A stretch of DNA of 48,638 bases from a virus: the IMG/VR virus record IMGVR_UViG_3300031631_000005, positions 1 to 48,638 of that record. One strand, 5' to 3'. The translations under genes were made by a program, and so were the position numbers. The notes below the pieces were generated by a model. The model was not told the DNA's origin. It saw nothing but the letters and a program-made list of their open reading frames with translations, and ran no database searches. Below, piece by piece: positions 4,461-42,137 of the stretch; position 1 is the stretch's first letter, and each line of letters begins with the position of its first letter.

Positions 4461-4479
4461 GCATAGGACAATTATAACT

Positions 4480-6663
4480 ATGGAATATATAATTATAGCT
4501 GCATTAGCAAAGTATAATAAAACTGACAGAGTTGTTATACAATTTGATAAAAATGAGTATTATATTGGTACTGTATCTTCTGTAAGAAACAATAGGGTAT
4601 ACGTTTTATTTGATGATGGTGATAAAGACAATATGCCTATTAAGTCTAAGCGTATAATGGGTATAGGTGTAAATAAAAAAAGAAAGTTAGCTATAAAGAA
4701 AAAAGACTTGGAGCAATGGATTAAAGATGATACTATGAAAGAAAAACCTATTAATTTAGCTAATCTTAAAAAGAATCCTAAAAAATATGTCAAAACACTT
4801 GTTATCAAACAGCTTGTTAAGCTTCTAGATAAGTTTGCTGATACTTATTATAATACAGGAAATAGTCTTGTTAGTGACTCAGTCTATGATATAGTAGAGG
4901 ATGAGTTGAGAACTAAAGATCCTTCTAATATACGCTTAAAACAAATAGGGGCTCCTGTTAAGAAGGGTAAAGGAAAAATTCGGTTGCCATATCACATGCC
5001 ATCATTGGATAAAATTAAAAGTGCAGATGGTACAGCAGACAAATGGCTTGCAACTCATGAAGGACCATATGTTACAAGTGATAAGATGGATGGTGCATCA
5101 TTAATGTTAGTTGGTCTTACTAATAAATGGAATATGTTTACTAGGGGTGATGGTACTTATGGTGGAGATTTATCTGTTATTAGTCCTTATCTTAAACTTC
5201 CTAAACCAAAAAAAGGTGTTGTAGTAAGAGTTGAAGGTCTTATGAAGAGCAATGTCTTTGATAAATACTATAAAGATGAAGCTGAAAATCCTAGAAATTT
5301 TACTAATGGATTCTTTAATCCAAGTAGAACAAGTGTACCCGCTGGTATAAGAAATGCTGACATTATGGGTTTTGAAGTGATTAAACCAAAACTTAAACCA
5401 AGTGATCAGTTCAAGTTGTTAAAGACACTAGGGTTTAAAGTAGCACCCCATAAGATATATAAAACTATTGATCCTTCTAAATTAACTAAGATACTTATTG
5501 AACGTAAAAAGAAATCAGGATATGATATTGATGGAATTGTTGTTGCACAGGATATTGTAGCTAATAGAACTTCAAGCAACCCTGACCATAAGAAAGCTTT
5601 TAAATCCCCTAGTGATGATCAAATGGCTACAGTCACTGTAACTAAAGTGGATTGGACATTAAGTAAATATGGATTTTGGAAACCGCGGGTATGGTTCGAG
5701 GGCGTTAGAATAGGCGGTGTTACAGTTAAGAAAGCTACAGGATTTAATGCTTATTTTATAAAATATGGCCATAGAAAAGATCAAACTGATAAACCTAATA
5801 GACCAATTGGTAAAGGTTCTGTAATAAAAATTATCCGGAGTGGTGATGTTATACCTCACATTGTTGAAGTATTAAAGAAAGGCAAACTTGAATTGCCGAA
5901 GGGTAAATTTGAATGGACTGACTCTGGTATTGATATTTTTAAAACAGATAAGAAGGGTATGGAGTCTGTAGAGATTAAAATGCTTAATCACTTTTTTAGA
6001 AATATAGGTGTTGAGTATTTCTCTGAGAAGCTAGTTGCCAGATGTTATAATGATGGTCTTAATACTATAATGAAAATAGTTAAAGCTAGTCCTAAAAGAT
6101 TATTAAAGATAGATGGTATTCAAGATACTATGGCTAATAAGATTAGAGATGGTATTGATAATCAATTAGAGGGTATAACGATATCTGACTTAATGTTTGC
6201 AAGTGGATCATTTGGTAAGGATATGGGTTCTCGTAGAATAAAATTAATCATGGATAAATATCCTAAAATACTTAGTAATGATTATGACGATATAGTAGAG
6301 AAATCTGAAAGCGTTGCTGGTATTCAAACAACATTAGCAGAACTATTTGCAATTGGTGTACCTAAGTTTAATAAATTTATGACTAAGATTGATCCTTATG
6401 TTAGTATAGTTAAACCTAAGAAATTAAAACTTAGTTCAACAAAGCTTAGTGGTATAACAGTAGCATTTACTGGTGTCCGGTCGGCCGAACTTGAGTCTAA
6501 GATAGTTAAGAATGGCGGAACAATAGGTTCTGGTGTGAGTAAGAATACCACACATTTGATAGTTAAAGATCTTGATAGTGGTAGTGCCAAGCTCAACAAA
6601 GCAAAAGATTTAGGTATAAAGATAATGACAATTGAGAAGTTTAAAAAATCGTTTAAGTTATAG
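4480..6663 (+). CDS. ligA: NAD+-dependent DNA ligase with N-terminal leader and Tudor-like module
   Basis: This is a LigA-type ligase, sealing nicks with NAD+ as cofactor. I place the start at ATG 4480 (AGGA at 4465-4468), giving MEYIIIAALAKYNK. Residues about 10-85 are the shared Tudor-like module. Next come an Ia-like segment (VSDSVYDIVEDEL), the HMPSLDK motif, the adenylation lysine K202 in DKMDGAS, an OB-fold region and helix-hairpin-helix segments (LLKIDGIQDTMANKI). A C-terminal BRCT domain (GITVAFTG to the end) closes it. The four-cysteine zinc finger usual in bacterial LigA is not visible. Fusion to leader and module is unusual for a ligase and suggests it is packaged and delivered with the genome (inference). 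Confidence 0.93.
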   Translation: MEYIIIAALAKYNKTDRVVIQFDKNEYYIGTVSSVRNNRVYVLFDDGDKDNMPIKSKRIMGIGVNKKRKLAIKKKDLEQWIKDDTMKEKPINLANLKKNPKKYVKTLVIKQLVKLLDKFADTYYNTGNSLVSDSVYDIVEDELRTKDPSNIRLKQIGAPVKKGKGKIRLPYHMPSLDKIKSADGTADKWLATHEGPYVTSDKMDGASLMLVGLTNKWNMFTRGDGTYGGDLSVISPYLKLPKPKKGVVVRVEGLMKSNVFDKYYKDEAENPRNFTNGFFNPSRTSVPAGIRNADIMGFEVIKPKLKPSDQFKLLKTLGFKVAPHKIYKTIDPSKLTKILIERKKKSGYDIDGIVVAQDIVANRTSSNPDHKKAFKSPSDDQMATVTVTKVDWTLSKYGFWKPRVWFEGVRIGGVTVKKATGFNAYFIKYGHRKDQTDKPNRPIGKGSVIKIIRSGDVIPHIVEVLKKGKLELPKGKFEWTDSGIDIFKTDKKGMESVEIKMLNHFFRNIGVEYFSEKLVARCYNDGLNTIMKIVKASPKRLLKIDGIQDTMANKIRDGIDNQLEGITISDLMFASGSFGKDMGSRRIKLIMDKYPKILSNDYDDIVEKSESVAGIQTTLAELFAIGVPKFNKFMTKIDPYVSIVKPKKLKLSSTKLSGITVAFTGVRSAELESKIVKNGGTIGSGVSKNTTHLIVKDLDSGSAKLNKAKDLGIKIMTIEKFKKSFKL

Positions 6664-7687: not shown

Positions 7688-7690
7688 TTT

Positions 7691-7757
7691 ATGAGGGACA
7701 GGGTTTGATCACCTTGGAAGTGCCATGAACACTTCCTAACCTCTTCATATCTTTCAT
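7691..7757 (+). ncRNA. Structured RNA element E1 (three-way junction candidate)
   Basis: Outer arms ATGAGGGA (7691-7698) and TCTTTCAT (7750-7757) pair with two G-U wobbles. Inside are AGG/CCT (7700-7702 with 7712-7714) closing a loop containing TTTGATCA, and a perfect 7-bp hairpin GGAAGTG/CACTTCC (7716-7722 with 7730-7736). The first hairpin resembles those of elements at 40001-40077 and 41915-41984. It ends at the HNH gene start, so it could also act as a 5' UTR. Confidence 0.4.
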
Positions 7758-7767
7758 GGAGATAAAA

Positions 7768-8400
7768 ATGAATAAGAAGTGTAAAGTAAAAGATTGTACT
7801 AAAGATGTTTATACTAAAGGTTATTGTAATAGACATTATAGACAAATTAAAGCTCGAGGTTATACTTGGGGTAATCCATTAAGAACATTTTATGATCCTA
7901 ATGAATTTATATTAAAAGGTGATATCTGTACTATTAAACTTTATGATTTACAGGGATGGAAAGTAGCTAATTGTATTATAGATAAGAAATATTATAAATA
8001 TGCTAAGAAATATAAATGGGGATTAATAAGTGGTTATTGTAGAAATAAAAAGATAGGTTTAATACATAGAAAAATTATAAAGCCTGTTGAAGGAATGGAA
8101 GTAGATCATATAGATGGAGATACTCTTAATTGTAGAAAGTATAATTTAAGAGTATGTAGTCATGCTGAAAATAGTTGTAATAGAAAGATACCTAAAAATA
8201 GTAGTACTGGAGTTAAGGGAGTAACTTTTATTAAACACATTAATAAATATCAAGCCCGTATAAGAATTGGTAAAAAAGAAATTGTTATAGGTTACTTTAA
8301 AAAATTAATTAATGCAGCTAAAGCATATAACAAGGCAGCCCTTGAATATCATGGCGAGTTTTCTAGATTAAATGATTTAGATGAAGTAAGAAAATTGTAA
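7768..8400 (+). CDS. HNH-AP2 homing endonuclease
   Basis: A free-standing homing endonuclease. An N-terminal Cys/His cluster (CKVKDCTKDVYTKGYCNRHY) looks like a small zinc knuckle. The HNH core is HRKIIKPVEGMEVDHIDGD, then LNCRKYNLR. A C-terminal AP2-type DNA-binding segment runs from STGVKGVTFIKH to AAKAYNKAALEYHGEFS. I prefer ATG 7768, with GGAG at 7758-7761, over ATG 7756, which falls inside the preceding RNA stem. Such genes spread by cutting cognate sites and are typical intergenic passengers in T4-like genomes. It appears intact. Confidence 0.9.
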   Translation: MNKKCKVKDCTKDVYTKGYCNRHYRQIKARGYTWGNPLRTFYDPNEFILKGDICTIKLYDLQGWKVANCIIDKKYYKYAKKYKWGLISGYCRNKKIGLIHRKIIKPVEGMEVDHIDGDTLNCRKYNLRVCSHAENSCNRKIPKNSSTGVKGVTFIKHINKYQARIRIGKKEIVIGYFKKLINAAKAYNKAALEYHGEFSRLNDLDEVRKL

Positions 8401-9703: not shown

Positions 9704-9732
9704 ATAATAGTAATAAAGAACCCAAAAAGAAA

Positions 9733-10453
9733 ATAGAATGTAGTTTACCTGAACATAAATATAATACTAAGAAAAAAGAATTTTATGTTTATATTCTTTT
9801 AGATACACGCAAACAAAAGAAAAGATATAGTAGATGGGTATTTGAACATGAACCTTTTTATGTTGGAAAAGGGAGTGGGGATAGAGCTTATCATCATTTA
9901 TGTTCTGGTGCTATCACTAATAGAACAAGTAGGAATGATTTTAAATCTAATATAATACAAAAAATAGTTAAACAAACTAAAGATGTTCCAAAAATTAGGT
10001 TCATTAACAACTTAACAGAAAAACAAGCCCATGAATTAGAAATAAAATTAATAAGTATAATTGGTAGGCGAGATAAAAAAGAAGGCCCACTTACTAATCT
10101 TACTAATGGTGGGGGAAGGAATAACTGGCAGGGTATGGACTGAAAAGATGAAAAAAGATCAGTCTAAGAGAGTATTAAAATATTATGCTTCTTTATCGAA
10201 AGAAGAAAAAGCTTCTAAATCTAAACTTATGATTGAGTCCCGACACAAATATGATACTAATGATTATATTAATAGAGTCTATGAATTATATGGTGATTCT
10301 TTAAAAGTTGTTGGAAAGTATAATAGTTGTGATGAGTATATTAAACATATCTGCAAAAAGTGTAATTTTATTTGGAACGCTAAGTCTTCATATATAAAGT
10401 ATAGAGTTCCTTCTTGTCCAAATTGTAAAAAATTAAAAAAAGGAGGTGATTGA
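9733..10453 (+). pseudogene. GIY-YIG homing endonuclease, frameshifted and lacking an ATG start
   Basis: The first frame reads EFYVYILLDTRK, then PFYVGKGSGDRAYHHL, then GPLTNLTNGGG, the GIY-YIG nuclease core. It has no ATG upstream; ATA 9733 is the first plausible non-canonical start. At 10111-10115 a run of five G shifts the frame. With four G the protein would read TNGGEGITGRVWTEKMKKDQ, the usual continuation of the family. The remainder (to TGA 10451-10453) ends in a Cys-rich zinc-ribbon-like segment (HICKKCNFIW and PSCPNCKK), like that in the endonuclease at 40105. It abuts the PAAR gene, whose ribosome site lies in its last codons. Confidence 0.75.
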
Positions 10454-15273: not shown

Positions 15274-18200
15274 ATGTTTAAATTAAACACTGCTAAAATG
15301 TTGGGATCAGGATCTACAGGATCTAATAATACAACACCCATGGTAGGATCTGCAAGTTTAAATACAAGTGTTAACACTACTTATACTAATTTTAATACTA
15401 GTCTATTAGAGAATATGGTAGATGACTTTAGTGAAAAAAGTTTAAATGACTTGTATAGAGAGATTTATTTATATGATACAGTTAGTGGTCCTACTGTTGA
15501 TCTAATGGCTAATTTGCCCTGGTCAACATTTACATTGACTGGAGTTAAAGATAAATCAATAATTAATATCTTTGAAGATTCAATAGCTGAATTAGGTGTA
15601 GTAGACTTAATGAGACAACTATCTGTTAGTTATTTAGTTCTTGGTAAGGTTATTGGATCTTTATTATTTAATGAGGATAGAGGTATCTTCACAGATATAA
15701 TTATGCAGAACCCTGATAACTGCACCTTGACAGAAATTCCATTAAAAGGTTATGATCCTAAAATTGATGTTATTGTTAGTCCCGAATTGAAACAATTTTT
15801 AAGATCAAAAGATCAAAGAGATAAAGAAGCACTAAAAGAAATTCCTAATGCACTAATGGTTAAACTATTAAAACAAAATAAAATAGAACTTGAACCACTG
15901 AGTACTCTGTATCTTAATAGAACTTCTATACCAGGAATAAAGAGCCTGAGTTATTACACAAGACTCTTACCTATATGGTTAATAGAAAAAGCATTAATGC
16001 GTGGAACTATTATAGCATCTTGGAAAAGACAAAGGTCCATATTGCATGTGACTTGTTTAACAGGCGATACTTTAGTAAGTACAGAGAAAGGTCTTATTAG
16101 AATTGATGAAATTATACCCCATAATCCTAAAGAATTTAGAGGAAAAACTACTAGTTTTCCTACCGATCTTAAAGTAAAAGGCTATGATGGTAAGTTTCAT
16201 AGTGCTAAGTACTGGCATTATAGAGGGTGTAAAGATACTATATCTATAACAACAGAACAAGGAAGAACTTTATCTTGTACACCTGACCATAAAATTTTAA
16301 TTTTGAATAGTAGCAAAAAGTTAGAATGGGTTGAAGCAAAAGACCTTGAAAATAAATTTATATGCATTGTAAATGATAATGAAAATTATTTACACGAAAA
16401 AGTTATTAAAATAGATAAAGGTAAAGAAGAACATGTTTATGATTTGACTATGGGTTATGGAACTAAGCCTGCTTTTATAGCTAATGGTATCATTTCCCAC
16501 AATTGCGGGAGTGACGATTGGGATGCTACGGACTCCCAGCTTGATTCTATATTATCATTATTTACTAACGCAGATCAAGACCCGCAAGGTGCCATAATTG
16601 CAACTCGTCCTGGTATAGAAACCAATGATGTAAGATCAGGCTCAGATTTCTGGAAAATAACAGATGAGTGGGATACTTTTAGTAATGCAAAAATGAGAGC
16701 TCTTGGTGTTAATGATAGCTTCCTTTGTCTATCGGGTGATACTACTATTTCAACAGATAGAGGCCTAATTACATTAACTGATCTTAGTAAAGATTTAGGA
16801 TTAAAAACTATTGAGAAAGATACTGGTATTGATATTGATTTAACTATTAAAGGTAAAACTGGTAAACCCGTTAAAGCTACTAAGTTTTGGTATAGAGGAG
16901 AAGATACTGTATATAAAATACTTACTAATAAGGGTTATAATGTTAGAACAACAAAAGATCATAAGATTCTTACACTTGGAGAAGAATTAAAACCGATTTG
17001 GGTCAAGACTAAAGACCTAACTACTAATTCTACATTATGTATAGATCAAAATGGTATTGATATAGTTAAAAATAAATTAAAATTAAACCTAGAAGATCCT
17101 ATTAAAGAAACTCATACTATAACTAAACCCGAGTACATGACACCTGAATTAGCTTATTTATTGGGTATAATAGTAACAGATAGAGTAATAGGTAAATATG
17201 GAATATCTCTAATTAACGCAGATGCATCGGTGCTATCAAAATTTAAAAGAAATATTAAGAAAGTTTTTAATACTGATATATCTTATACAGAGTTGAGTAG
17301 TATTAAAGGGGATAAATATGATATATTAGGTATTACAGGAACTTGCAAACAAAATACTTATGCTATAACAGTTAATAGTATACATATTGGGCAATGGTTT
17401 GCTCAACTTGGTGCAAGTCCTTATAAAAGAATTGAAGGAGAAGTAGGAGCTTATTATAAAGATGTTCCTTGGTCAATATTACAAGCTGACTTAGAAAGTA
17501 AACATGCTTTTATAGCAGGGTTTATTGACGGTGATGGTGGTGGTTCTGTAAACTATAATAGTGGGACTGATATAGGATTAATCTTTTATTCATCTTCATT
17601 TAGAATGATAAAACATTTACGAGTTCTTCTATTAGATATGGGGTATCCTTCATATACTATGGATGATTATTCAGGACTAAGTGTTAATAGTGCAGTTGGT
17701 TCTCATTTATATAAAAATATTCAGAAACAACTAGTACATGGTAGTAAATCTCAGTATGAAGCTACTGGTTCTACAATACAAAGAACTATAGGAATACCAA
17801 TTGAATCTATTAATATGTTTCTTAGGTCTAGATATATTGGAAGACAACAAAATGTAGGTGAATGGTTTGAAAATGATAAGGGTAAGCTCGTTTCAATTAA
17901 AACTTATGGTCGTAGAGTTAGTCCCTTTTTAGGATCTACTTTAAATGTAGACTCTAAGACTAAAAGAGGTGTACTTCCTTATGGTGTATATGAACAAGGT
18001 ACTTATGATGATTTATTACAAGTATTAAAACAAATAAGTGTTTCCTTTTACAAAAGAGTACTTAGTTTATTTGATATTAAATACTTCTTTGATAATGTTT
18101 CTTATGTTAAAGAAACTAATATTGTAAAATTATATGATCTAACTATTGAAAAGACAGAATCTCCTGCATTTGTAGCTAATGGAATAATAGTTCATAATAG

Positions 18201-18837
18201 TGGTGATAGTAACTTCAATACCCAAGAAATGGCATTATCAAGTTTTATGGAAAATCTAAAATCTTTTAGAGAGTATATGACTACTAGTATCCTTTATGAT
18301 AAAATATTTTTATTAACTTCTAAGTATCATGGATTTAAACAAAAAACTCAGGCAGAGCTAGATCACAAGGTTAACACTAGTGGATATTCTAAATCACATA
18401 GAATATTAGGTGCTAAGAATTTAGCTAGTTCTAAGAATTATATTATACCAAAGGTTCAATGGACAAAAGATTTATCAGCTAGATCAGATTCAACTTACAT
18501 GGATATGTTAACTACAGCAGAAGAAAAGGGAATACCTGTAACTATAGCAATGTTTGCAGCAGCAGCAGGTGTTGATATGGACGAAGTTATGGACTCACTA
18601 GAATCTGATGCTAAGTTAAGAAAACAAATAAAAGAATATAAAGACAAATTAAAGACAGAAGGTGTTAGTGGTGGTGGCGATGAAGATGGGGATGGTGACA
18701 TGTTTGGTAGTGTATCTATAGATAATAATACAGATAATGATATAAAGAAACTAGCAGAATCATTACCAGATGAAACTATACTTAATGATAGTGAATTAGC
18801 AAATATAGTAAATCTTAATAGTACTAAAATTCAGTAG
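15274..18837 (+). CDS. Portal protein (gp20-like) containing two inteins
   Basis: Exteins: residues 1-260, 411-484 and 976-1187, about 546 residues after splicing, close to T4 gp20 (524). They contain SEKSLNDLYREIYLYDTVSG, SLSYYTRLLPIWLIEKALMR, GSDDWDATDSQLDSILSLF and LGVNDSFL joined to SGDSNFNTQEMALSSFME, a typical portal motif. The portal forms the ring at the capsid vertex for DNA entry and exit. The two inteins lie at conserved sites: before CGSDDWD and at FL/SGDSNF. The C-terminus is acidic (DEDGDGDMFG). AGAGGCAAATATG provides the start. Active portal requires both splicing events (known for inteins). Confidence 0.93.
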   Translation: MFKLNTAKMLGSGSTGSNNTTPMVGSASLNTSVNTTYTNFNTSLLENMVDDFSEKSLNDLYREIYLYDTVSGPTVDLMANLPWSTFTLTGVKDKSIINIFEDSIAELGVVDLMRQLSVSYLVLGKVIGSLLFNEDRGIFTDIIMQNPDNCTLTEIPLKGYDPKIDVIVSPELKQFLRSKDQRDKEALKEIPNALMVKLLKQNKIELEPLSTLYLNRTSIPGIKSLSYYTRLLPIWLIEKALMRGTIIASWKRQRSILHVTCLTGDTLVSTEKGLIRIDEIIPHNPKEFRGKTTSFPTDLKVKGYDGKFHSAKYWHYRGCKDTISITTEQGRTLSCTPDHKILILNSSKKLEWVEAKDLENKFICIVNDNENYLHEKVIKIDKGKEEHVYDLTMGYGTKPAFIANGIISHNCGSDDWDATDSQLDSILSLFTNADQDPQGAIIATRPGIETNDVRSGSDFWKITDEWDTFSNAKMRALGVNDSFLCLSGDTTISTDRGLITLTDLSKDLGLKTIEKDTGIDIDLTIKGKTGKPVKATKFWYRGEDTVYKILTNKGYNVRTTKDHKILTLGEELKPIWVKTKDLTTNSTLCIDQNGIDIVKNKLKLNLEDPIKETHTITKPEYMTPELAYLLGIIVTDRVIGKYGISLINADASVLSKFKRNIKKVFNTDISYTELSSIKGDKYDILGITGTCKQNTYAITVNSIHIGQWFAQLGASPYKRIEGEVGAYYKDVPWSILQADLESKHAFIAGFIDGDGGGSVNYNSGTDIGLIFYSSSFRMIKHLRVLLLDMGYPSYTMDDYSGLSVNSAVGSHLYKNIQKQLVHGSKSQYEATGSTIQRTIGIPIESINMFLRSRYIGRQQNVGEWFENDKGKLVSIKTYGRRVSPFLGSTLNVDSKTKRGVLPYGVYEQGTYDDLLQVLKQISVSFYKRVLSLFDIKYFFDNVSYVKETNIVKLYDLTIEKTESPAFVANGIIVHNSGDSNFNTQEMALSSFMENLKSFREYMTTSILYDKIFLLTSKYHGFKQKTQAELDHKVNTSGYSKSHRILGAKNLASSKNYIIPKVQWTKDLSARSDSTYMDMLTTAEEKGIPVTIAMFAAAAGVDMDEVMDSLESDAKLRKQIKEYKDKLKTEGVSGGGDEDGDGDMFGSVSIDNNTDNDIKKLAESLPDETILNDSELANIVNLNSTKIQ
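16054..16503 (+). mobile_element. Intein 1: 150-aa mini-intein in portal
   Basis: Begins at Cys261 (CLTGDTLVSTEKGLIRIDE, block A) and ends ANGIISHN, followed by Cys of the extein. Blocks A, B (CTPDHKILI), F and G are present. No LAGLIDADG endonuclease is inserted, so it is a splicing-only mini-intein of 150 residues. Flanking extein residues are VT and CGSD. Confidence 0.9.
16726..18198 (+). mobile_element. Intein 2: 491-aa LAGLIDADG intein in portal
   Basis: Begins at Cys485 (CLSGDTTISTDRGLITLTDL) and ends VANGIIVHN, followed by Ser of the extein. Block B is RTTKDHKIL. The endonuclease signatures are LAYLLGIIVTDRV and FIAGFIDGDGGG, a LAGLIDADG-type homing enzyme between the splicing halves. 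It can home into the conserved portal motif FLSGD. Confidence 0.92.
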
Positions 18838-22064: not shown

Positions 22065-22872
22065 ATGAAACTAAAACTTGAGAACTAAGAAAAGTATGCA
22101 CTAGTATCAAAGAAAGACTATGATAGGGTTGTGAAATATGAGTGGAGTCTAAAATTTGGAGGTAAGAAAGTACCTTATGTTGTTGGATGCAATATAGACA
22201 AGTCATTACATACATGCATTTATAATGAATCCACCAAAAGGAAAGGTAGTAGATCACAAAGACCATGACACTCTTAACTGTAAACGTAATAACTTAAGAG
22301 TTTGTACTTATGCCCAAAACTCTGCTAATATGCTACCTAAAGAAGGTGGTAAATCTAAGTATAAGGGTGTGACTATCAATGCTTCTGGAGCTTACCAAAC
22401 ATCTATAACACACCATTATGTACCTATGTATTTAGGAAGTTTTAAATCAGAGAAAAAAGCTGCTCGTTTCTATGATAAAGCAGCACTACACCTTAAGGGT
22501 GAGTTTGCATACACTAATTTTGATTACACTATTAAGAAGAATAGGGATAAATTAAAGAAGATTGTAGTACCTTATGTAGATTGTGATCCTCCAAGAGCAG
22601 AGGGTACTCCAAGTAGACAATATAAAAGAAAGAAAAACCCTTTTGAAGATGCTTGGAAAGCTAGAAGAGAATCTATTAAACCTACCGTTAAACTCAAAAC
22701 TCTTAAGAGTGGTAAAACTATTGTTAAGATAGCTATACAAGGTAAACATGGTAAGGATGAAGATGGAAAACAAATATATGCCAAGACAGATAAAAAATAT
22801 TATGATTTAATAAAAGATTATAAATGGTATGGGAAAGTACCCTACAGATATACAGATAAGTTTATACATTAA
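22065..22872 (+). pseudogene. HNH/AP2 homing endonuclease with early stop and frameshift
   Basis: ATG 22065 (AAGGAGACTACT) reads MKLKLEN to TAA 22086-22088 and continues in frame as EKYALVSKKDYDRVVKYEWS to about 22220. It then shifts +1 into MNPPKGKVVDHKDHDTLNC, the HNH core, and NNLRVCTYAQNSANM. An AP2-like segment follows (SKYKGVTIN and KAARFYDKAALHLKGEFAYT). Relatives read through as one 200-300-residue homing endonuclease. Codon 8 (TAA) differs by one base from AAA or GAA. A decayed selfish gene. Confidence 0.8.
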
Positions 22873-25638: not shown

Positions 25639-25668
25639 TACAGGGTTTTACTACTATTATTATAAATA
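25639..25668 (+). promoter_or_regulatory. 30-bp repeat ending in TATAAATA (copy 1)
   Basis: A 30-base block is identical to 27099-27128 and ends in TATAAATA, the T4 late-promoter core. Here it lies only 13 bases before ATG 25682, so a transcript from it would have almost no 5' leader. Promoter function is plausible but unproven. Confidence 0.4.
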
Positions 25669-25681
25669 TAGGTATATAAAA

Positions 25682-27010
25682 ATGGAATATATAAAATTAC
25701 CAATAACTAAAATTCTTTCATCCTTAACTTTAAATCAAATAAAGCCCTTTAAAAAGGCTATAATGGAAAAGAAATTTAAGTCTTATCTTAATAATGTATT
25801 TAAAGATAAAGATAGATTATACTTAGATTTTAAAACTAAGAATGTTGTTAATAAACCTCCAATTAAATTAAGTAACTTCTTAGAAAAAACAGGTTACTAT
25901 GTAGTTGACTATAATAAAGGCCTAGCTAAAAATAATAAAAGTGATAAAGCTAATCTAATAAAAATAGGTAAATTACTGAATAAAAATAAAGAATTAAAGT
26001 TATTAAAGGAATTTAATGAAGATAAAAGTAGAACAGCAGGTAAGAAATCAGACTTACTTATAGTTGTATCTAGGCATCCTTATGATATAGCAGGAATGTC
26101 AACAGGTAGGGGCTGGACTTCCTGTATGAATCTTGATAAAAATGAAATGAAACATTATATAACTAGAGATATAGAAAATGGTACATTAGTAGCTTATATT
26201 ATAAATATAAAAGATAAAAATATTAATAAGCCTATATCTAGACTATTAATAAAACCTTATATAAATATAGAAGATGAAAAGGATATATTTTTGTATCCTG
26301 AAAAGAAAGTATATGGTACTAATATTAATGGTTTTAGAACTAGAATAATAAAGTGGTTAAAAACTTTTCAAAAGTTAAAAGGGGTATACAAGTTTAATAA
26401 AAAATTGTATGATGATAATTCAGATCCTTTTATAGCAGCAGCTGATAAAGAAAGTAGTAACTATCTATCAAGAATAGCTTATTATGAAAAGAATCCAAAA
26501 GATAAAGATGCTAAAAAAGATGAAGATAGAGAAGTAAGAAAATTTTACTATAGGAATAACCTTAACGATAAAGATTCTAAGAATGATAAAGATAAGGGTT
26601 TAAGGATGATGTATTATTATGACAACCCTAATGATAAAGATGCTAAGAAAAATGAAGATATAAATATAAGATATGCATATTATGAAAAGAATCCTATTGA
26701 TGGCGATGCTAAGACTGATGAAGACGGAGATATAAGAGAATTATATTATAAAAACAACCCTATTGATGGTGATGCTAAGACTGATAAATCTCCATCTATA
26801 AGAAAACTGTACTATAAAAATCATCCTATTGATAAAGATGCTAAAACTGATAAATTTAAATTTATAAGAAAATTGTATTATAGAAATAATCCAGATGATG
26901 AAGATGCTAAGAAAGATAAAGATTCTGGTATTAGAAGATTATATTATAAAAATAATTTAAATGATAAAGATTATAAAAAAGACAGAGTTTTAGATGATAT
27001 GTTTGATTGA
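25682..27010 (+). CDS. Class A leader protein with STGRGWTSCM domain and eight 22-residue repeats
   Basis: A full-length paralogue of 3258-4460: leader MEYIKLPITKILSSL, then the same N-terminal domain (VVSRHPYDIAGMSTGRGWTS, CMNLD), then eight 22-residue repeats (26461-27005) and the end DDMFD with TGA 27008-27010. Domain identity with the 3258 protein is high, but the repeats differ in number and sequence. The conserved RGWTSCM core suggests a binding or enzymatic domain; the repeats suggest an extended helical surface. Function unknown. It is followed by a terminator at 27036-27068. Confidence 0.75.
   Translation: MEYIKLPITKILSSLTLNQIKPFKKAIMEKKFKSYLNNVFKDKDRLYLDFKTKNVVNKPPIKLSNFLEKTGYYVVDYNKGLAKNNKSDKANLIKIGKLLNKNKELKLLKEFNEDKSRTAGKKSDLLIVVSRHPYDIAGMSTGRGWTSCMNLDKNEMKHYITRDIENGTLVAYIINIKDKNINKPISRLLIKPYINIEDEKDIFLYPEKKVYGTNINGFRTRIIKWLKTFQKLKGVYKFNKKLYDDNSDPFIAAADKESSNYLSRIAYYEKNPKDKDAKKDEDREVRKFYYRNNLNDKDSKNDKDKGLRMMYYYDNPNDKDAKKNEDINIRYAYYEKNPIDGDAKTDEDGDIRELYYKNNPIDGDAKTDKSPSIRKLYYKNHPIDKDAKTDKFKFIRKLYYRNNPDDEDAKKDKDSGIRRLYYKNNLNDKDYKKDRVLDDMFD
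26461..27005 (+). repeat. Eight tandem 66-bp coding repeats
   Basis: Units of YYxxNPxDxDAKxDxDxxIR repeat eight times, some with IDGDAKTDE variants. Same family as 47-520 and 4045-4455. Confidence 0.85.
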
Positions 27011-27035
27011 TTTATTAAGTATAAAAATATTAATT

Positions 27036-27068
27036 AACCACTGTAATTAAACTTATAGTGGTTTTTTT
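27036..27068 (+). terminator. Intrinsic terminator before the capsid operon
   Basis: AACCACT (27036-27042) pairs with AGTGGTT (27057-27063), with a loop containing a further TAA/TTA pair, followed by seven T (27062-27068). It separates the repeat-protein gene from the capsid module. Confidence 0.75.
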
Positions 27069-27098
27069 ACCTGCAAATACTAGCTAATAACGCTACAA

Positions 27099-27323
27099 TA
27101 CAGGGTTTTACTACTATTATTATAAATAATAGACTCTACTAAAATAACAATAAAGTAGTGAGTCCCCACCAGTTTAATATTGTAAACGTATGATGACTAT
27201 AATATATGTACCTATCTAAACCCAAATCTAAGACAATGAGGAGGTTTCTAAGTATGCTTTAAAGTCGATAGTTAGGCTATAATTGTAGGTTAATTAATTT
27301 TAATAAGGAGGTTTAAAATAAAA
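27099..27323 (+). promoter_or_regulatory. Upstream region of capsid operon: TATAAATA promoter candidate, hairpin and leader peptide
   Basis: The 30-bp repeat copy 2 (27099-27128) ends in TATAAATA at 27121-27128. A hairpin GACTC...GAGTC follows (about 27131-27161). A tiny ORF MRRFLSML lies at 27236-27262. AAGGAGGTTTAAAATAAAAATG then starts the first operon gene. A long 5' leader (about 190 bases) before the most highly expressed virion genes suggests late-promoter-driven, possibly post-transcriptionally regulated expression (inference). Confidence 0.5.
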
Positions 27324-31048: not shown

Positions 31049-31064
31049 TCATTTAAGAAAAGAG

Positions 31065-31140
31065 GGGGGACAGCATTGATAAATGTTGGAAAATACTTTT
31101 ACTATTTTTCTAACCCTCCATTCTTATATTTCCTGTAAAA
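31065..31140 (+). other. Structured 3' untranslated stretch after the core gene
   Basis: GAGGG pairs with CCCTC around two inner hairpins: CATT-gata-AATG, and GAAAATA/TATTTTTC. This lies between the core gene stop and the terminator at 31181. Confidence 0.35.
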
Positions 31141-31153
31141 TGGGGTATATAAG

Positions 31154-31180
31154 ATGAAAATTTGTAAAGTAAATATTATT
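31154..31180 (+). other. Orphan leader-like start overlapping the terminator
   Basis: ATG 31154 encodes MKICKVNII, similar to the MKIVKV/MKIIKV leaders at 8433 and 25109. It continues in frame through the terminator stem into the leader of the next gene, with no matching body. It is probably a leftover leader. Confidence 0.3.
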
Positions 31181-31217
31181 AAAAGGAGGTGCTATTATTT
31201 TATAGTACCCCTTTTTT
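31181..31217 (+). terminator. Intrinsic terminator after the capsid operon
   Basis: AAAAGG-A-GGTGCTAT (31181-31195) pairs with ATAGTACCCCTTTT (31202-31215) around a 6-base loop, with one bulged A and one G-U pair, followed by a T run (31212-31217). It ends the capsid operon. The AGGAGGT inside it is a stem arm, not a ribosome site. Confidence 0.8.
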
Positions 31218-31258
31218 GTATAAACATTGTGACCATAGTAATTAATAAGGATAATAAA

Positions 31259-31642
31259 ATGAAAACTATCAAAATACCTGCAAGTGTAGCTAAAGCTTTA
31301 AATATTAATATTGAAAGCAAAAGTAAACCTAAAGATGTTACAAAAAATGTTTTAAGTGCCTTTAATACATCCTTAAAAAAATCAATAGAAGAAGGAAAGA
31401 AAGGTATTAAAGCTAGAAAAAATGCTGTATTATGGATGACAGATTTATGGGAAAGAAAGGCTGCCCCTATTGCACTAAGGTATGCTGCAATAACTAGAAA
31501 TGCAGAAATTGCCCTTGAAAAAAATAAAAAAGTTAAATTCTTTGTTAGTAAATTACACTCAGGTCAGGGTAATAGTAAGATAGTACATTTAAAAGATGAT
31601 AAAGAATTAAAAGAAGAATACTATGAAGATGGGCCCTCTTAA
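31259..31642 (+). CDS. Class B leader protein, 127 aa
   Basis: The start is ATG 31259 (AAGGATAATAAAATG), not the upstream ATG 31154. It opens MKTIKIPASVAKALNINIES, the class B leader, with a NIES junction suitable for cleavage after Glu. The remaining 107 residues are a basic helical domain (VTKNVLSAFNTSLKKSIEEG, KARKNAVLWMTDLWERKAAP) with a conserved KKVKFFVSKLHSGQGNSKIV segment. Family not recognised. Probably packaged. Confidence 0.7.
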   Translation: MKTIKIPASVAKALNINIESKSKPKDVTKNVLSAFNTSLKKSIEEGKKGIKARKNAVLWMTDLWERKAAPIALRYAAITRNAEIALEKNKKVKFFVSKLHSGQGNSKIVHLKDDKELKEEYYEDGPS

Positions 31643-31726
31643 TAAGGTTAATAAAAGTAGGTAAAGATTTTGATAAATCTACAGGTAAATATACAAAAAT
31701 AAATAGTAAATAGAAGGATAATAATT

Positions 31727-32080
31727 ATGCCTACCTTTGGAGTTAAAACAGATATTACTATGAGTACTAAAACTAGTAGGATAAATTATAATTCTTTCTA
31801 TAAAAGTTTTGAACAGAATAATATAAAGATGGAAAGTCCTGTTACTATTGTTTTTACCGAATCAGAAACATTTGATCTCTCAAATTCTAGTTTTGTAATT
31901 GTAGTGGCAGATGATTATGGTCTAGAAAATGAAGTTCTTAATATTACATTCACTGATAGTGATGCTAATGAGTTTACTCTAGAAAATGTAGGCTTCCTGA
32001 GTCTAAATTTTAGTAACTTAGTATCCATGAGTATATTAAATAGTAGTGATACTAATGTTTCTATAAATATTGTGTACTAA
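31727..32080 (+). CDS. Unknown beta-rich 117-aa protein (paralogue pair A)
   Basis: Starts MPTFGVKTDITMSTKTSRIN after AGAAGGATAATAATTATG. The protein is 117 residues, with a beta-sheet pattern (SSFVIVVADDYGLENEVLNI). It is about 85% identical to the protein at 32386-32742, including the upstream bases, so the pair is a recent tandem duplication. No leader. Perhaps a virion decoration or structural protein; no family is recognised. Confidence 0.7.
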   Translation: MPTFGVKTDITMSTKTSRINYNSFYKSFEQNNIKMESPVTIVFTESETFDLSNSSFVIVVADDYGLENEVLNITFTDSDANEFTLENVGFLSLNFSNLVSMSILNSSDTNVSINIVY

Positions 32081-32112
32081 AATACTATAAATAATAATAA
32101 GGTTAATATATA

Positions 32113-32349
32113 ATGGAATCAATTAAAATACCTGCAAGTGTAGCTAAAGAATTGAATATAAACATTGAATCAATACCTACCGCAAAAAATAAAAATAAAC
32201 CTAAAGTAACTATGATTGTTAATTTAAATATTCCTGGTGCTAATGGGGCTGTAGAATATGACGAGGAATTTAATTTTAGTTTTAAAAAGTCTGATTGGAA
32301 GAAAGCTCAAAAAACAATATTAAAACAATTAGATAAAGTAATTAAATAA
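32113..32349 (+). CDS. Class B leader protein, 78 aa
   Basis: Begins MESIKIPASVAKELNINIES, a class B leader with NIES junction. The remaining 58 residues are basic (KNKNKPKVTMIVNLNIPG, FSFKKSDWKKAQKTILKQLD) and unrecognised. It lies between the two copies of the 117-residue paralogue. Likely a small packaged protein. Confidence 0.7.
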   Translation: MESIKIPASVAKELNINIESIPTAKNKNKPKVTMIVNLNIPGANGAVEYDEEFNFSFKKSDWKKAQKTILKQLDKVIK

Positions 32350-32385
32350 AATCAAGTAATAATAGTAAATAGAAGGATAATAATT

Positions 32386-32742
32386 ATGCCTACTTTTGGT
32401 ATCAGAACAGATATAACTATGAGTACTACAAATAGTAGGATCAATTATAATTCATTCTACAAGAGTTTTGAACAATCTAGTATAAAGATGGATAGTCCTA
32501 TTACTATTGTTTTTACCGAATCAGAAACATTTGATCTCTCAAATTCTAGTTTTGTAATTGTAGTGGCAGATGACTATGGCCTAGAAAATGAAGTTCTTAA
32601 TATTACATTCACTGATAGTGATGCTAATGAGTTTACTCTAGAAAATGTAGGCTTCCTGAGTCTAAATTTTAGTAACATAGTATCTATGAGTATACTTAAT
32701 ACAAGTAGTGATACTAATGTTTCTGTTAATATTGTGTACTAA
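32386..32742 (+). CDS. Unknown beta-rich 118-aa protein (paralogue pair B)
   Basis: Duplicate of 31727-32080 (MPTFGIRTDITMSTTNSRIN, then the same SSFVIVVADDYGLENEVLNI core). The upstream bases (GTAAATAGAAGGATAATAAT) are identical as well. Differences are scattered, several synonymous, and one extra residue lies near the C-terminus. Function unknown. Confidence 0.7.
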   Translation: MPTFGIRTDITMSTTNSRINYNSFYKSFEQSSIKMDSPITIVFTESETFDLSNSSFVIVVADDYGLENEVLNITFTDSDANEFTLENVGFLSLNFSNIVSMSILNTSSDTNVSVNIVY

Positions 32743-32771
32743 AATACTATAAATAATAAAGGAATAATAAA

Positions 32772-33089
32772 ATGGAAACAATTAAAATACCCGCAAGTGT
32801 AGCTTCTGTATTAAAGATTGATATTGAAAGTAAAAAAATGAAAACACCTACTAAAGAAGAATTAGCTAATAATCCTGAACTTAAAGAAAAATGGGAAAAA
32901 GAAAAAATTAAACGTAAAAAAGCTAAAAGATCTATGACAGATTTTGATAATGCTGTAGTAGTTGTTTGGGATGGTAAACCCCAAATTTCAAGTCATATTA
33001 GAGAAGCTGTAAAAAAAGTTTTAAAAAAACGAAATATAGAAGATTTTAAAACAAGTCATTTTACGGCTAATAACTTAGATATGTTTTAG
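32772..33089 (+). CDS. Class B leader protein, 105 aa
   Basis: METIKIPASVASVLKIDIES is the class B leader. The body is strongly basic (KEKWEKEKIKRKKAKRSMTD) with an acidic/hydrophobic strand (NAVVVVWDGKPQIS) and a helix (IREAVKKVLKKRN). The family is unknown. Ribosome site AAAGGAATAATAAAATG. Likely small packaged basic protein. Confidence 0.7.
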   Translation: METIKIPASVASVLKIDIESKKMKTPTKEELANNPELKEKWEKEKIKRKKAKRSMTDFDNAVVVVWDGKPQISSHIREAVKKVLKKRNIEDFKTSHFTANNLDMF

Positions 33090-33167
33090 TAATATAATAA
33101 TATAATTTAAAAACTTTGGTTAATAAAGTAAAAAATCAAAAAAGTTGAAAATAAAGAAAAATGAAAA

Positions 33168-33437
33168 ATGAAATCAATTCAAATCCCAGCAAGTGTGGCA
33201 GAAGCTTTAAATATTAATGTTGAAAGCAAATATTCCACAAAAGATATAAAAGATGAAACTCATATTAAAGTTAAATCACCTAAAGAATTTGAACAAGCTG
33301 TAAAAGATATGGGTTTTGATGATTTAAAAGATTTTCTTAAAGATACAGGAATTGATTTTAAAACTGTTAAAGGTAAATGGTGGTTATTAATTAATAACCA
33401 CCATTTACTCATGAAGGAAAATAAATGTTTAATATAA
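33168..33437 (+). CDS. Class B leader protein, 89 aa, 3' end overlapped by a palindrome
   Basis: MKSIQIPASVAEALNINVES (class B leader, NVES junction) then a short body (KSPKEFEQAVKDMGFDDLKD). A perfect 36-bp palindrome (33373-33408) encodes the last segment (GKWWLLINNHHLL). The original gene may have been longer. No strong ribosome site precedes ATG 33168. Confidence 0.6.
   Translation: MKSIQIPASVAEALNINVESKYSTKDIKDETHIKVKSPKEFEQAVKDMGFDDLKDFLKDTGIDFKTVKGKWWLLINNHHLLMKENKCLI
33373..33408. repeat. Perfect 36-bp palindrome, centre TTAATTAA
   Basis: Arms 33373-33390 and 33391-33408 are exact reverse complements with no spacer. It lies inside a coding frame and gives a similar peptide (KWWLLINNHH) on the opposite strand. 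Candidates are a replication or packaging landmark, a protein-binding site or a fold-back replication scar. Confidence 0.9.
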
Positions 33438-39984: not shown

Positions 39985-40000
39985 TAGTATTAGTAATAAT

Positions 40001-40077
40001 AATTTCTTGGCATAATATAACAGGGTTGCTCCTTAGTTTAGGTACTATTTTACTTAAACAATATTATGTCAGGAATT
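40001..40077 (+). ncRNA. Structured RNA element E3 (three-way junction)
   Basis: Outer arms 40001-40018 and 40061-40077 pair over about 15 bp with two wobbles (core CATAATAT/ATATTATG). The 42-base interior forms AGG...CCT and GTTTA/TAAAC (40036-40040 with 40055-40059) closing a 14-base loop GGTACTATTTTACT. Layout and loop match element E2 at 41915-41984. Confidence 0.55.
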
Positions 40078-40104
40078 TTTATTCTTAAATAGGAGAGTAA
40101 AATA

Positions 40105-41133
40105 ATGCCAAGAATGAAAACAGATAATCAATTTAAAAAAGAGTTAGATAATGCATTTAATGGAAGAATAATTAGTTTAGAAAAGTATAAAGGTGCTTTA
40201 ACAGCTATAATAGTTAAGTGTAATGTTTGTGATAAGCAACATAAAGCTCACCCAACTAATTTATTACGGGGACATTTTGGTTGTAGTTGTTCAGAAAAAC
40301 TTAGAGCTCCAACAAGATATAAAAAATCTAATAAACAATTTAAGTTTGAATTAAAAGAAATGTTTGATGGTAGAATAATTCTTTTAGAGAAGTATAAATT
40401 AGGTAAGCTTCCTATCTTAGCAAAATGTACTGTTTGTAATACTGAAAAAAGAGTATTGTCTTCTGATTTAGTATATGGTAGTTTTGGGTGTAAATGTTCC
40501 GAAAAGGCAAGAATAAAGAAAATATCACAAACTTTAATGGATTCTGACAAACAGATACAAGATAAGATAAATAAAATAAATGATAAGATTATTTTATTAG
40601 GTAGAAATAAAGATAATTATTTAAAAGGTGATTTTACTTGTATTAAATGTGGGCATAAATGGACTACCCAACTAAGTAGTGTAGTATTTACAGCTAGTTG
40701 TAAAAATTGTAGTAAATATAAAGTAAAACCATTCAAATTAGGTAATAAAACTGTTTACATACAAGGCTACGAACCACAAGCACTGAGGTGGTTAAAACAC
40801 AACACAAATTTAAAGCCAAGTCAAATTATTGCTGGTGAAATGGGTAAAATTCCAAGAATTGATTACTATTATGACAACAAGTGGAGATTTTATTATCCTG
40901 ACTTCTATATACCTAAGAAGAAAATAATAGTGGAAGTTAAAAGTACTTGGACACTACTTATGAATGAATGGGTATTCAATTCTATTAAAGCCAAACGTGA
41001 AGCTGTTAAAGAAGAGCAATACAAATTCAGTTTAATGTTAATGAACGATAGTGAAAAGATTAAACTAAATAAGTGGTACAAAATGGATTATAGTGAAGCT
41101 TGTGAATCTGTTAATATACTAATAGCAGCATAA
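40105..41133 (+). CDS. Free-standing homing endonuclease, zinc-ribbon repeats plus PD-(D/E)XK domain
   Basis: The N-terminal 130 residues contain two repeats with Cys pairs (KCNVCDKQHKAHPTNLLRG with CSCSEKLRAP, and KCTVCNTEKRVLS with GCKCSEKARIK), each after a GRIISLEKYKG/GRIILLEKYKL strand. A third Cys set (CIKCGHKW, CKNC) follows. The C-terminal domain has RIDYYYDNKWRFYYPDFYIP followed by KKKIIVEVKSTWTL, the PD-x-E-V-K pattern of PD-(D/E)XK homing nucleases found in T4-like phages. Appears intact. Similar Cys modules end the GIY-YIG gene at 9733. Confidence 0.8.
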   Translation: MPRMKTDNQFKKELDNAFNGRIISLEKYKGALTAIIVKCNVCDKQHKAHPTNLLRGHFGCSCSEKLRAPTRYKKSNKQFKFELKEMFDGRIILLEKYKLGKLPILAKCTVCNTEKRVLSSDLVYGSFGCKCSEKARIKKISQTLMDSDKQIQDKINKINDKIILLGRNKDNYLKGDFTCIKCGHKWTTQLSSVVFTASCKNCSKYKVKPFKLGNKTVYIQGYEPQALRWLKHNTNLKPSQIIAGEMGKIPRIDYYYDNKWRFYYPDFYIPKKKIIVEVKSTWTLLMNEWVFNSIKAKREAVKEEQYKFSLMLMNDSEKIKLNKWYKMDYSEACESVNILIAA

Positions 41134-41156
41134 GAAAAAGGAGAGTAAAGATAACA

Positions 41157-41528
41157 ATGATTGTTAAAATACCCGGATCTGTAGCTTCTGCTTTAAACAT
41201 AAACATTAATTCAGATGCTAAGAGTGATAAAAAGAAAATAGCTAAATCAATTAAAACTGCTTTGGGTAAAAGAATTACGACTACTCTAATTATAAAAGAT
41301 ATTAGTGTTGATCCTAAAGATTTTCATGTAAAGATTAAATGTGAGAATCCAAATAAAATTTTATTTTTTAGTGAGATAGCAGAGATTAAAAAAATAATAA
41401 AAACTAAGATTCCCGGTATATCTAAAAACTTTGCAATAAGTGGTGGTAGTGTTAATAAACCTATAATATCTTTTATTAATCCAAAGTTTTTTAAACAGTT
41501 TGATGCTAAATCTAAATCTAAAAAATAA
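41157..41528 (+). CDS. Class B leader protein, 123 aa
   Basis: MIVKIPGSVASALNININSD is a class B leader variant with Asn-Ser instead of Glu-Ser at the junction, so it may not be cleaved. The body (KKKIAKSIKTALGKRITTTL, EIAEIKKIIKTKIPGIS) is basic and helical. Family unknown. It is away from the other class B genes, following a homing endonuclease. GGAGAG lies at 41141-41146. Confidence 0.65.
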   Translation: MIVKIPGSVASALNININSDAKSDKKKIAKSIKTALGKRITTTLIIKDISVDPKDFHVKIKCENPNKILFFSEIAEIKKIIKTKIPGISKNFAISGGSVNKPIISFINPKFFKQFDAKSKSKK

Positions 41529-41540
41529 TAATAACGAATA

Positions 41541-41680
41541 CGCTGGGGTGGCGGGGGGGCAGGGTACTACTTTAGTTTACATAACAATAATTTCTAAAGG
41601 GCATACTATATTAATGTTGAACTCACGGCAGTATTAATATACTTATAGCCATATTAACTAGGGTAGTACCCATCCACCAC
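41541..41680 (+). ncRNA. Large structured RNA element E4 with G-rich start
   Basis: A perfect 16-bp stem, 41562-41577 with 41656-41671 (GGGTACTACTTTAGTT and its partner, two G-U pairs), extended by GGTGG/CCACC (about 41546-41550 and 41673-41678). Inside is a perfect 9-bp hairpin TATATTAAT/ATTAATATA (41607-41615 with 41633-41641) with a 17-base loop. A run of seven G at 41553-41559 is exceptional in this AT-rich genome. There is no ORF. Likely an expressed RNA or a strong structural element between cargo gene and zinc-finger gene. Confidence 0.6.
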
Positions 41681-41714
41681 AATAATTATTATTTAAAAGG
41701 ATAACAATACTTAT

Positions 41715-41909
41715 ATGAAAGATATTTTAATAATGGAAAAATGTATTTGCTGTAATGCAAATTTAACGCTAATGGAATCTTGTAGAGGTGAAGATAAAGA
41801 TGACGAAGTATTAACTAATTCCTACTTAGTTACGAGATGTTTACAATGCGAGGCTCATGAAGTTAAAGAAGTAGCTAGACTCAATGATAATCAATCTGAT
41901 TTACAATAG
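41715..41909 (+). CDS. Small CxxC zinc-binding protein
   Basis: 64 residues, or 58 from Met at 41733 (MEKCICCNANLTLMESCRGE). Two Cys pairs: CICC and C-LQC (TRCLQCEAHE), suggesting a small zinc ribbon. It is bracketed by structured RNA elements at 41541-41680 and 41915-41984. Start uncertain: AAGGATAACAATACTTATATG supports 41715. Function unknown. Confidence 0.6.
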   Translation: MKDILIMEKCICCNANLTLMESCRGEDKDDEVLTNSYLVTRCLQCEAHEVKEVARLNDNQSDLQ

Positions 41910-41914
41910 TGTAT

Positions 41915-41984
41915 CTTAATACAGTATGTTGGGCTTGATCACCCTTGTTTAGATGCTACCTCATTTAAACCATACTGTGTTAAG
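41915..41984 (+). ncRNA. Structured RNA element E2 (three-way junction)
   Basis: A 14-bp outer stem, CTTAATACAGTATG (41915-41928) with CATACTGTGTTAAG (41971-41984), one U-G pair. Inside are GGG...CCC (41931-41944, loop CTTGATCA) and GTTTA/TAAAC (41947-41951 with 41966-41970), with loop GATGCTACCTCATT, the same length as in E3. The loop differs from E3 only by transitions. Confidence 0.6.
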
Positions 41985-42053
41985 TTATTATTTCAGGTAG
42001 GAGATAAGAATAGGGGAACAAAGAAAAGCCATTAAAGAAGAAGATTATTAGTA

Positions 42054-42137
42054 ATGACTAAAGATGGTTTCAAACTTGATATCCCTATAGGATGGTATAA
42101 TATGAAATACAATATAGTTTATGATGAGGTGATGTGA
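42054..42137 (+). CDS. 27-aa ORF overlapping tube-like gene
   Basis: ATG 42054 encodes MTKDGFKLDIPIGWYNMKYN to VYDEVM, with TGA 42135-42137 overlapping the ATG of the next gene (TGATG). The tight overlap suggests translational coupling, and it carries the GAGGTG ribosome site of that gene. Too short to classify. Confidence 0.35.
   Translation: MTKDGFKLDIPIGWYNMKYNIVYDEVM

Follow-up and report, generated by a model that had tools for sequence, protein, structure and literature searches.

What do structured RNA elements do at either end of a nuclease-bearing insertion in a phage tail gene cluster, and do they occur elsewhere? The window analysed here, which is an entire virus record of 48,638 bases, represents a tailed phage with a T4-like contractile tail (sheath and tube genes), whose main genes all lie on the plus strand. 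In a preliminary description made from the letters alone, two stretches, E2 and E3, were proposed to be three-way-junction RNAs, and a third, E1, was listed as a weaker member. Our analysis leads us to regard these elements and a fourth, E4, as phage cis-acting leader RNAs that mask the Shine-Dalgarno (SD) sequence by a pseudoknot and control the translation of selfish nucleases, a reading to which we assign a probability of roughly 0.8. In it, repression and its direction are inferred, in the absence of transcript or probing data.

Two diverged copies in a tail-gene insertion

When both strands of the window were scanned with a descriptor for three-way junctions, the two best matches were E2 and E3 (Table 1), in agreement with the preliminary description. 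In the alignment of the two elements, 45 of 67 positions are identical, and the 22 differences over the whole elements consist of 18 transitions and 4 transversions. None of the 22 shared pairs is disrupted in either copy, five of them having been altered on both sides, and both copies contain G-U pairs, as expected from the earlier claim that pairing is kept while the arms vary. When the same number of transitions was placed at random on E2/E3, all of the pairs survived in 0.6% of the trials. These results indicate that the outer arms, previously called unrelated, are homologous. The second hairpin, previously drawn as 5 bp closing a 14-nt loop, is instead a 9-bp helix closing a 6-nt loop (consensus CUAYYU), and the differences described there as loop transitions are in part misplaced, two of them being compensatory pairs within the 9-bp stem. 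The minus strand folds worse for both elements, markedly so for E2, and U-rich stretches lie 3' of both.

In L007 and L009, the nearest relatives, the two tail-tube-type genes found on either side of the E2–E3 segment are separated by only 21–33 nt, and the intervening segment of the window is therefore considered to be inserted. These relatives were found by tail-sheath alignment; scans with single proteins yielded no close relatives. The insertion contains, in order, E2, a nuclease gene, a small ORF, a structured stretch, a small ORF and E3. An intergenic sequence at 41529–41714 is strongly folded (-42.8 kcal/mol), in that GGGUACUACUUUAGUU and AACUAGGGUAGUACCC pair and enclose a 13-bp inner hairpin; it lies outside the E family and has no Rfam match. 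A tandem array of paralogous small genes (KIPASVAKALNI...) is present at 31256–33245, an extra copy of which is located at 41164 inside the insertion. No Rfam match to a group I intron catalytic core was found in the window.

Table 1. Positions of the E elements, their putative pseudoknot halves and the associated genes in the window.
Feature	Position	Strand	Description	Basis
E1	7689..7747	+	Canonical; P1 7690-7697 region, J GAC	R2 (no window sequence in model) 53.4 bits, E 1.1e-11
E1 helices			P2 AGGGU<UUGAUC>ACCUU; P3 GGAAGUG<CCAUGAA>CACUUCC; J UAA	
E1 P3 loop	7723..7729	+	CCAUGAA, 5' half of pseudoknot	Complement located
E1 pseudoknot partner	7753..7759	+	UUCAUGG(AGA), leads into SD (UCAUGGAGA)	7 bp with P3 loop
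Gene behind E1	7768..8400	+	HNH_3/AP2 homing endonuclease; ATG at 7768, 8 nt past pseudoknot	PHROGs/Pfam HNH; spacing
E4	31061..31121	+		R2 30.0 bits, E 1.4e-5
E4 P3 loop	31097..31102	+	UUUUAC	
E4 pseudoknot partner	31135..31140	+	GUAAAA, 5' of a GGGG	
Gene behind E4	31154..31258	+	Probable homing endonuclease start remnant (MKICKV...), then next gene	Translation; inference
Insertion	39985..42133	+	Between two tail-tube-type genes	L007, L009
E2	40004..40075	+	Divergent member; P1 15 bp, P2 loop UUGCU, P3 9 bp	R2 17.0 bits, E 0.035
E2 P3 loop	40045..40050	+	CUAUUU	
E2 pseudoknot partner	40087..40092	+	AAAUAG(GAG), leads into SD AGGAGA	
Gene behind E2	40105..41133	+	DUF7487 / HNH-type homing endonuclease	PHROG 559 3.8e-20; Pfam DUF7487 2.1e-15
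E3	41915..41984	+	Divergent member; P1 14 bp, P2 loop CUUGAUCA, P3 9 bp	R2 20.1 bits, E 0.0053; pair count
E3 P3 loop	41956..41961	+	CUACCU	
E3 pseudoknot partner	41995..42000	+	AGGUAG(GAG), leads into SD AGGAGA; no start codon downstream (decayed gene)	

An RNA family with a conserved three-way core

A covariance model built from E2 and E3 only (R1) had no match in the tail-gene relatives of the window phage. Its match in L084 (E 7e-5), a locus retrieved for a different purpose, lies immediately 5' of a further homing endonuclease and was the entry point to the family. The core ACAGGGNUUGRYCNCCUU was then scanned through 2.9 million viral contigs, giving 63 loci, of which about 26 were clear members and the remainder were chance matches, mostly in coding sequence. 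A second model (R2), built from 22 members of other viral contigs and containing no window sequence, gave E1, E4, E3 and E2, in this order, as its top four matches in the window, and, across 0.9 Mb of loci retrieved for different purposes, matched the L084 element alone. In total, uncultivated phages supplied about 70 members, and cultured Enterocloster bolteae phages one more. Whole records contain up to six copies, this number being reached in one 33-kb contig, and the record of the window's nearest relative also carries one element, at another place.

The covariation score of the paired columns was 0.615 for 22 independent sequences, compared to 0.165 with shuffled partners, and 0.598 compared to 0.184 for 44 sequences; it collapsed when the partners were slid by 1–3 columns. 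The proposal that the family is under structural constraint is thus borne out, and the loss of pairing in relatives, which would have refuted it, was not seen. The search patterns account for part of the P2 letter conservation but not for P1, P3, J3/1, the pseudoknot or the gene context; since P1, P3 and J3/1 lie outside the patterns, their conservation is independent of the search. A descriptor covering all parts of the element (P1, P2, P3, a loop complementary to a downstream site, and an ATG) retrieved exactly E1, E4 and E2 from the window, against 0.125 chance matches per dinucleotide-shuffled window, and E3 was missed only because no ATG follows it.

No match to Rfam 15 at the gathering thresholds was found in the window or in 11 member loci, consistent with the earlier statement that no known family fitted, and a permissive Rfam search of E1, E2-E3 and L111 returned chance-level matches or none. 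No description of an E-family RNA was found in open-access papers (subscription papers were outside the search), and the family is apparently undescribed. Two other candidates were set aside: a scan with the hp2 pattern otherwise returned chance matches, and a match in Ruminococcus plasmids is antisense inside an IS3 gene, without R2 support.

The elements are about 60–75 nt long, in the order P1, J1/2, P2, P3, J3/1 and P1'. P1 comprises 4–15 bp of any sequence, J1/2 is GAC and J3/1 is U-W-A. In P2 (AGGGN..N'CCUU), the first pair is A-U in 43/43 sequences and the second is G.U in 41/43, never G-C or A-U; the base order is A-U, G.U, G-C in class I, and class II has A-U beside the G.U. The P2 loop is UUG(AU|GC)C in class I and U[AUC]GCU in class II, and some of the loop classes are exchanged between copies within one phage. 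In a wider scan with two loop letters left free, no class-I members other than those with GAUC or GGCC were found. P3 is a freely covarying helix of 7–9 bp with an apical loop of 6–7 nt. A P3 sub-variant with the common letters CCYGAAACC...KAGUAKGG occurs in L245, L227, L215, L272, L270 and L217, some members of which precede non-nuclease or unassigned genes.

By these features E1, previously ranked as the weaker member, is the most typical element of the window and folds as a three-way junction; its second hairpin differs from those of E2 and E3 because P3 covaries freely across the family. All three of the originally proposed elements are real, and the fourth copy, E4, had been overlooked. 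A hairpin followed by a T run, resembling an intrinsic terminator, is present at 31184–31219, right behind E4 and its nuclease stub. The junction letters GAC and UWA are present in E1 and E4 and absent from E2 and E3, suggesting that the latter two may be degraded or altered. The P2 loop of E2 is of class II, as in L138 and L193. E2 and E3 are individually weak in R2, and they are assigned to the family on the combined evidence of model, pseudoknot and gene context.

Downstream genes and the P3 loop/Shine-Dalgarno complementarity

The nuclease genes are intact behind E1 and E2, decayed behind E3 and probably decayed behind E4. The SD of E3 without a start codon, together with the nuclease-stub frame of E4, suggests that the RNA also marks dead insertions. 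Among 30 downstream proteins, Pfam matches were obtained to NUMOD3 (11), HNH (7) and MTES_1575 (3), and further to DUF7487, DUF723, GIY-YIG, zf-His_Me and LAGLIDADG_3, and PHROGs assigned downstream proteins to homing or HNH endonucleases. A few members precede replication-initiator-like genes (RepA_N in L210, HTH_36 in L216 and L270), and the family is therefore not exclusive to nucleases. Conversely, a third HNH gene of the window (22225–22872, after the head protease) has no E-family element.

In the cultured Enterocloster bolteae phages CB457P1 and CB473P3, the element (R3, 1.4e-6; loop CUGCAA / UUGCAG) precedes a GIY-YIG/NUMOD3 gene annotated ITEVIR. Model searches of whole records of cultured phages were uninformative, because the known CB457P1 element, positive with R3 in its locus, was missed; a direct unfiltered search of 11 cultured-phage loci, most of them around nuclease genes, found no element.

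Some nuclease-related features were noted on the side. A nuclease gene in L084 has an in-frame TAG at 6840 (minus strand) where its orthologue in L121 has glutamine, possibly reflecting TAG recoding or a dead gene, and a group-I-intron-like sequence lies just upstream. In the window, a GIY-YIG-like frame (FYVYILLDTR...FYVGKG) at 9704–10453 is apparently broken by a frameshift, and the portal-type protein encoded at 15274–18837 (1187 aa) has an endonuclease-family match in its middle part, at residues 623–759, which may reflect an intein that carries a homing endonuclease.

The bases running into the SD are complementary to the P3 apical loop, in most members along its full 6–7 nt. The complementarity extends over 7 bp in E1 and 6 bp in each of E2, E3 and E4 (sequences in Table 1). 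For 45 members, the mean score of each loop with its own site was 15.7, compared to 10.5 for permuted pairs, with a maximum of 11.7 in 20,000 permutations. In a held-out test on class-II members fetched afterwards, a strong match was observed in 22/23, compared to 14% of swapped pairs, and none of 20,000 permutations did as well. The start codon follows 6–13 nt past the pseudoknot in nearly all members. The preliminary description of the elements missed both this loop/SD pseudoknot and the link to homing endonucleases, and its limits were too narrow, since the functional unit extends about 15–30 nt further 3', to the SD site.

Control of nuclease translation and competing readings

Sequence comparison establishes the family, its covariation-supported helices, the complementarity of loop and SD flank, and the gene context. 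In the mechanism proposed from them, the leader would fold as a three-way junction of P1, P2 and P3 directly 5' of the homing endonuclease start codon, and the P3 apical loop would pair with a stretch that leads up to the SD and overlaps it. Such a pseudoknot would hide the ribosome entry site, so that little or no nuclease would be made from the folded RNA, and the enzyme would presumably be kept off until a late phase or a signal. The conserved core would most likely stabilise the pseudoknot or respond to a factor that changes during infection, and the module would travel with unrelated selfish nucleases, which make repeated use of it.

A repressing role of the pseudoknot, as opposed to one in positioning the ribosome, is inferred from the precedent of the T-even phages, in which the SDs of homing endonuclease genes (I-TevI/II/III, segB and Aeh1 mobE) are hidden in plain RNA hairpins (PMC2988022). 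Whereas those hairpins are individual and hold the SD inside a stem, the E family is one RNA with a three-way core that spans unrelated nucleases and phages, and its SD flank pairs with the P3 loop, so that the T-even arrangement of an SD in a simple-hairpin stem is not met. A phage pseudoknot that controls translation is known from the T4/T2 gene 32 leader (PMC3014915), but it is bound by gp32, lies about 67 nt upstream of the start, and has neither a three-way junction nor an SD within it, unlike the E family. The manA and wcaG motifs are likewise phage-carried structured RNAs (PMC2864571); they differ in motif, genes and hosts, and the E family has no Rfam match to them.

The layout of the family, a conserved core with an expression platform on the SD, is of the riboswitch type. 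Translational riboswitches such as preQ1-II and SAM-II have a pseudoknot that includes the SD. The E family resembles them in its small conserved core, its SD pseudoknot and its place directly upstream of the start codon, and differs in having no known ligand or Rfam match and in regulating selfish nucleases rather than metabolic genes. A specific form of our reading is accordingly a switch responsive to a ligand or protein, in which an aptamer composed of the P2 loop, the A-U/G.U pairs and the junction would, depending on its occupancy, form or disrupt the SD pseudoknot, timing the translation of nucleases and replication initiators to a phase of infection. Ligand binding is hypothetical here, and we hold this form only tentatively, at somewhat below even odds. 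It would explain why letter conservation is highest in J1/2, P2 and J3/1, outside the SD pairing, why the second P2 pair is nearly always G.U, with E4 retaining it though the next two pairs are changed, and why one core serves unrelated genes. Nevertheless, the conservation may serve the fold alone, no ligand or protein partner is indicated, and the P2 loop falls into at least two classes, exchanged in some cases between copies in one phage.

The pairing of loop and SD requires no ligand, and the element may instead be a constitutive attenuator, keeping a toxic nuclease low, or restricting its synthesis to shorter transcripts that begin within the element, as with I-TevI in T4; RNA structure and late promoters serve the homing endonucleases of T-even phages in this manner (PMC2988022). 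This remains possible, though we lean against it, as a plain hairpin would suffice and the conserved three-way core across many phages would be left unexplained. The self-complementary P2 loops (GAUC, GGCC, AGCU and UGCA) also raise the idea of a kissing dimer, in which copies on one or two mRNAs act jointly. A palindromic loop tetramer is found in 38/45 members, and class I is entirely GAUC or GGCC although the patterns allowed GACC/GGUC or any NN; however, only four pairs would form, the UUGCU (including E2) and UCGCU loops are not self-complementary, and the search patterns supply part of the enrichment, so that we consider such joint action unlikely.

Control of the phage gene by ribosomal protein S15 through a mimic of its binding site was suggested by the three-way junction, the SD pseudoknot and the class-I invariant G.U beside G-C, which resemble those of some rpsO leaders (PMC4684408), where the SD is controlled by a three-way junction or pseudoknot. 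The rRNA GU/GC motif, however, lies about one helical turn from a three-way junction with a GGC triple, unlike in the E family, where the G.U occupies the second position of P2. In class II an A-U pair adjoins the G.U, the gene context differs from that of rpsO, and no Rfam S15 match was obtained, which together make this reading very improbable. Least credible of all is that the elements are RNase III- or terminator-type intergenic hairpins or DNA cruciforms unconnected with the genes behind them. While the long P1 stems and the U-rich stretches after E2 and E3 could be read in this way, the fixed place before start codons and the loop/SD matching refute it as the main account, and G-U pairs are kept, with a much weaker minus-strand fold for E2. 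A self-cleaving ribozyme, an IS605/IStron end, a terminator and a cruciform were also rejected, as there is no matching core and no transposase, and the start codon sets the position.

Returning to leader RNAs that mask the SD, the invariant G.U, the junction letters and the re-use by unrelated genes would favour a sensor over a scaffold, with no partner known. A portable sensor-switch can be conjectured, at somewhat below an even chance, in which an aptamer-like three-way RNA senses an infection signal and toggles the SD pseudoknot, possibly as a kissing dimer, in the service of unrelated nucleases and some replication initiators.

In the papers searched, translational control of phage homing endonucleases was previously represented only by the one-off T-even hairpins. 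The recruitment of one RNA family by HNH, GIY-YIG, LAGLIDADG, DUF7487 and other nucleases suggests that quieting these enzymes is a general need, met by an interchangeable part. The element also provides a sequence tag for homing endonuclease genes, including dead ones as at E3 and E4, and the family is a ready system for exploring what may be a new class of riboswitch, with a member carried by a cultured Enterocloster phage.

Two further kinds of repeat were observed in the window. Near-identical 30-nt intergenic copies (ACAGGGTTTTACTACTATTATTATAAATA) at 25640–25668 and 27100–27128 end in the T4-late-promoter-like TATAAATA; the promoter-like motif ACAGGGTT at these places (25640 and 27100) is not part of the E family. 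Arrays of a 66-bp (22-codon) repeat are common to three separate genes, at 52–549, 3914–4543 and 26404–27099.
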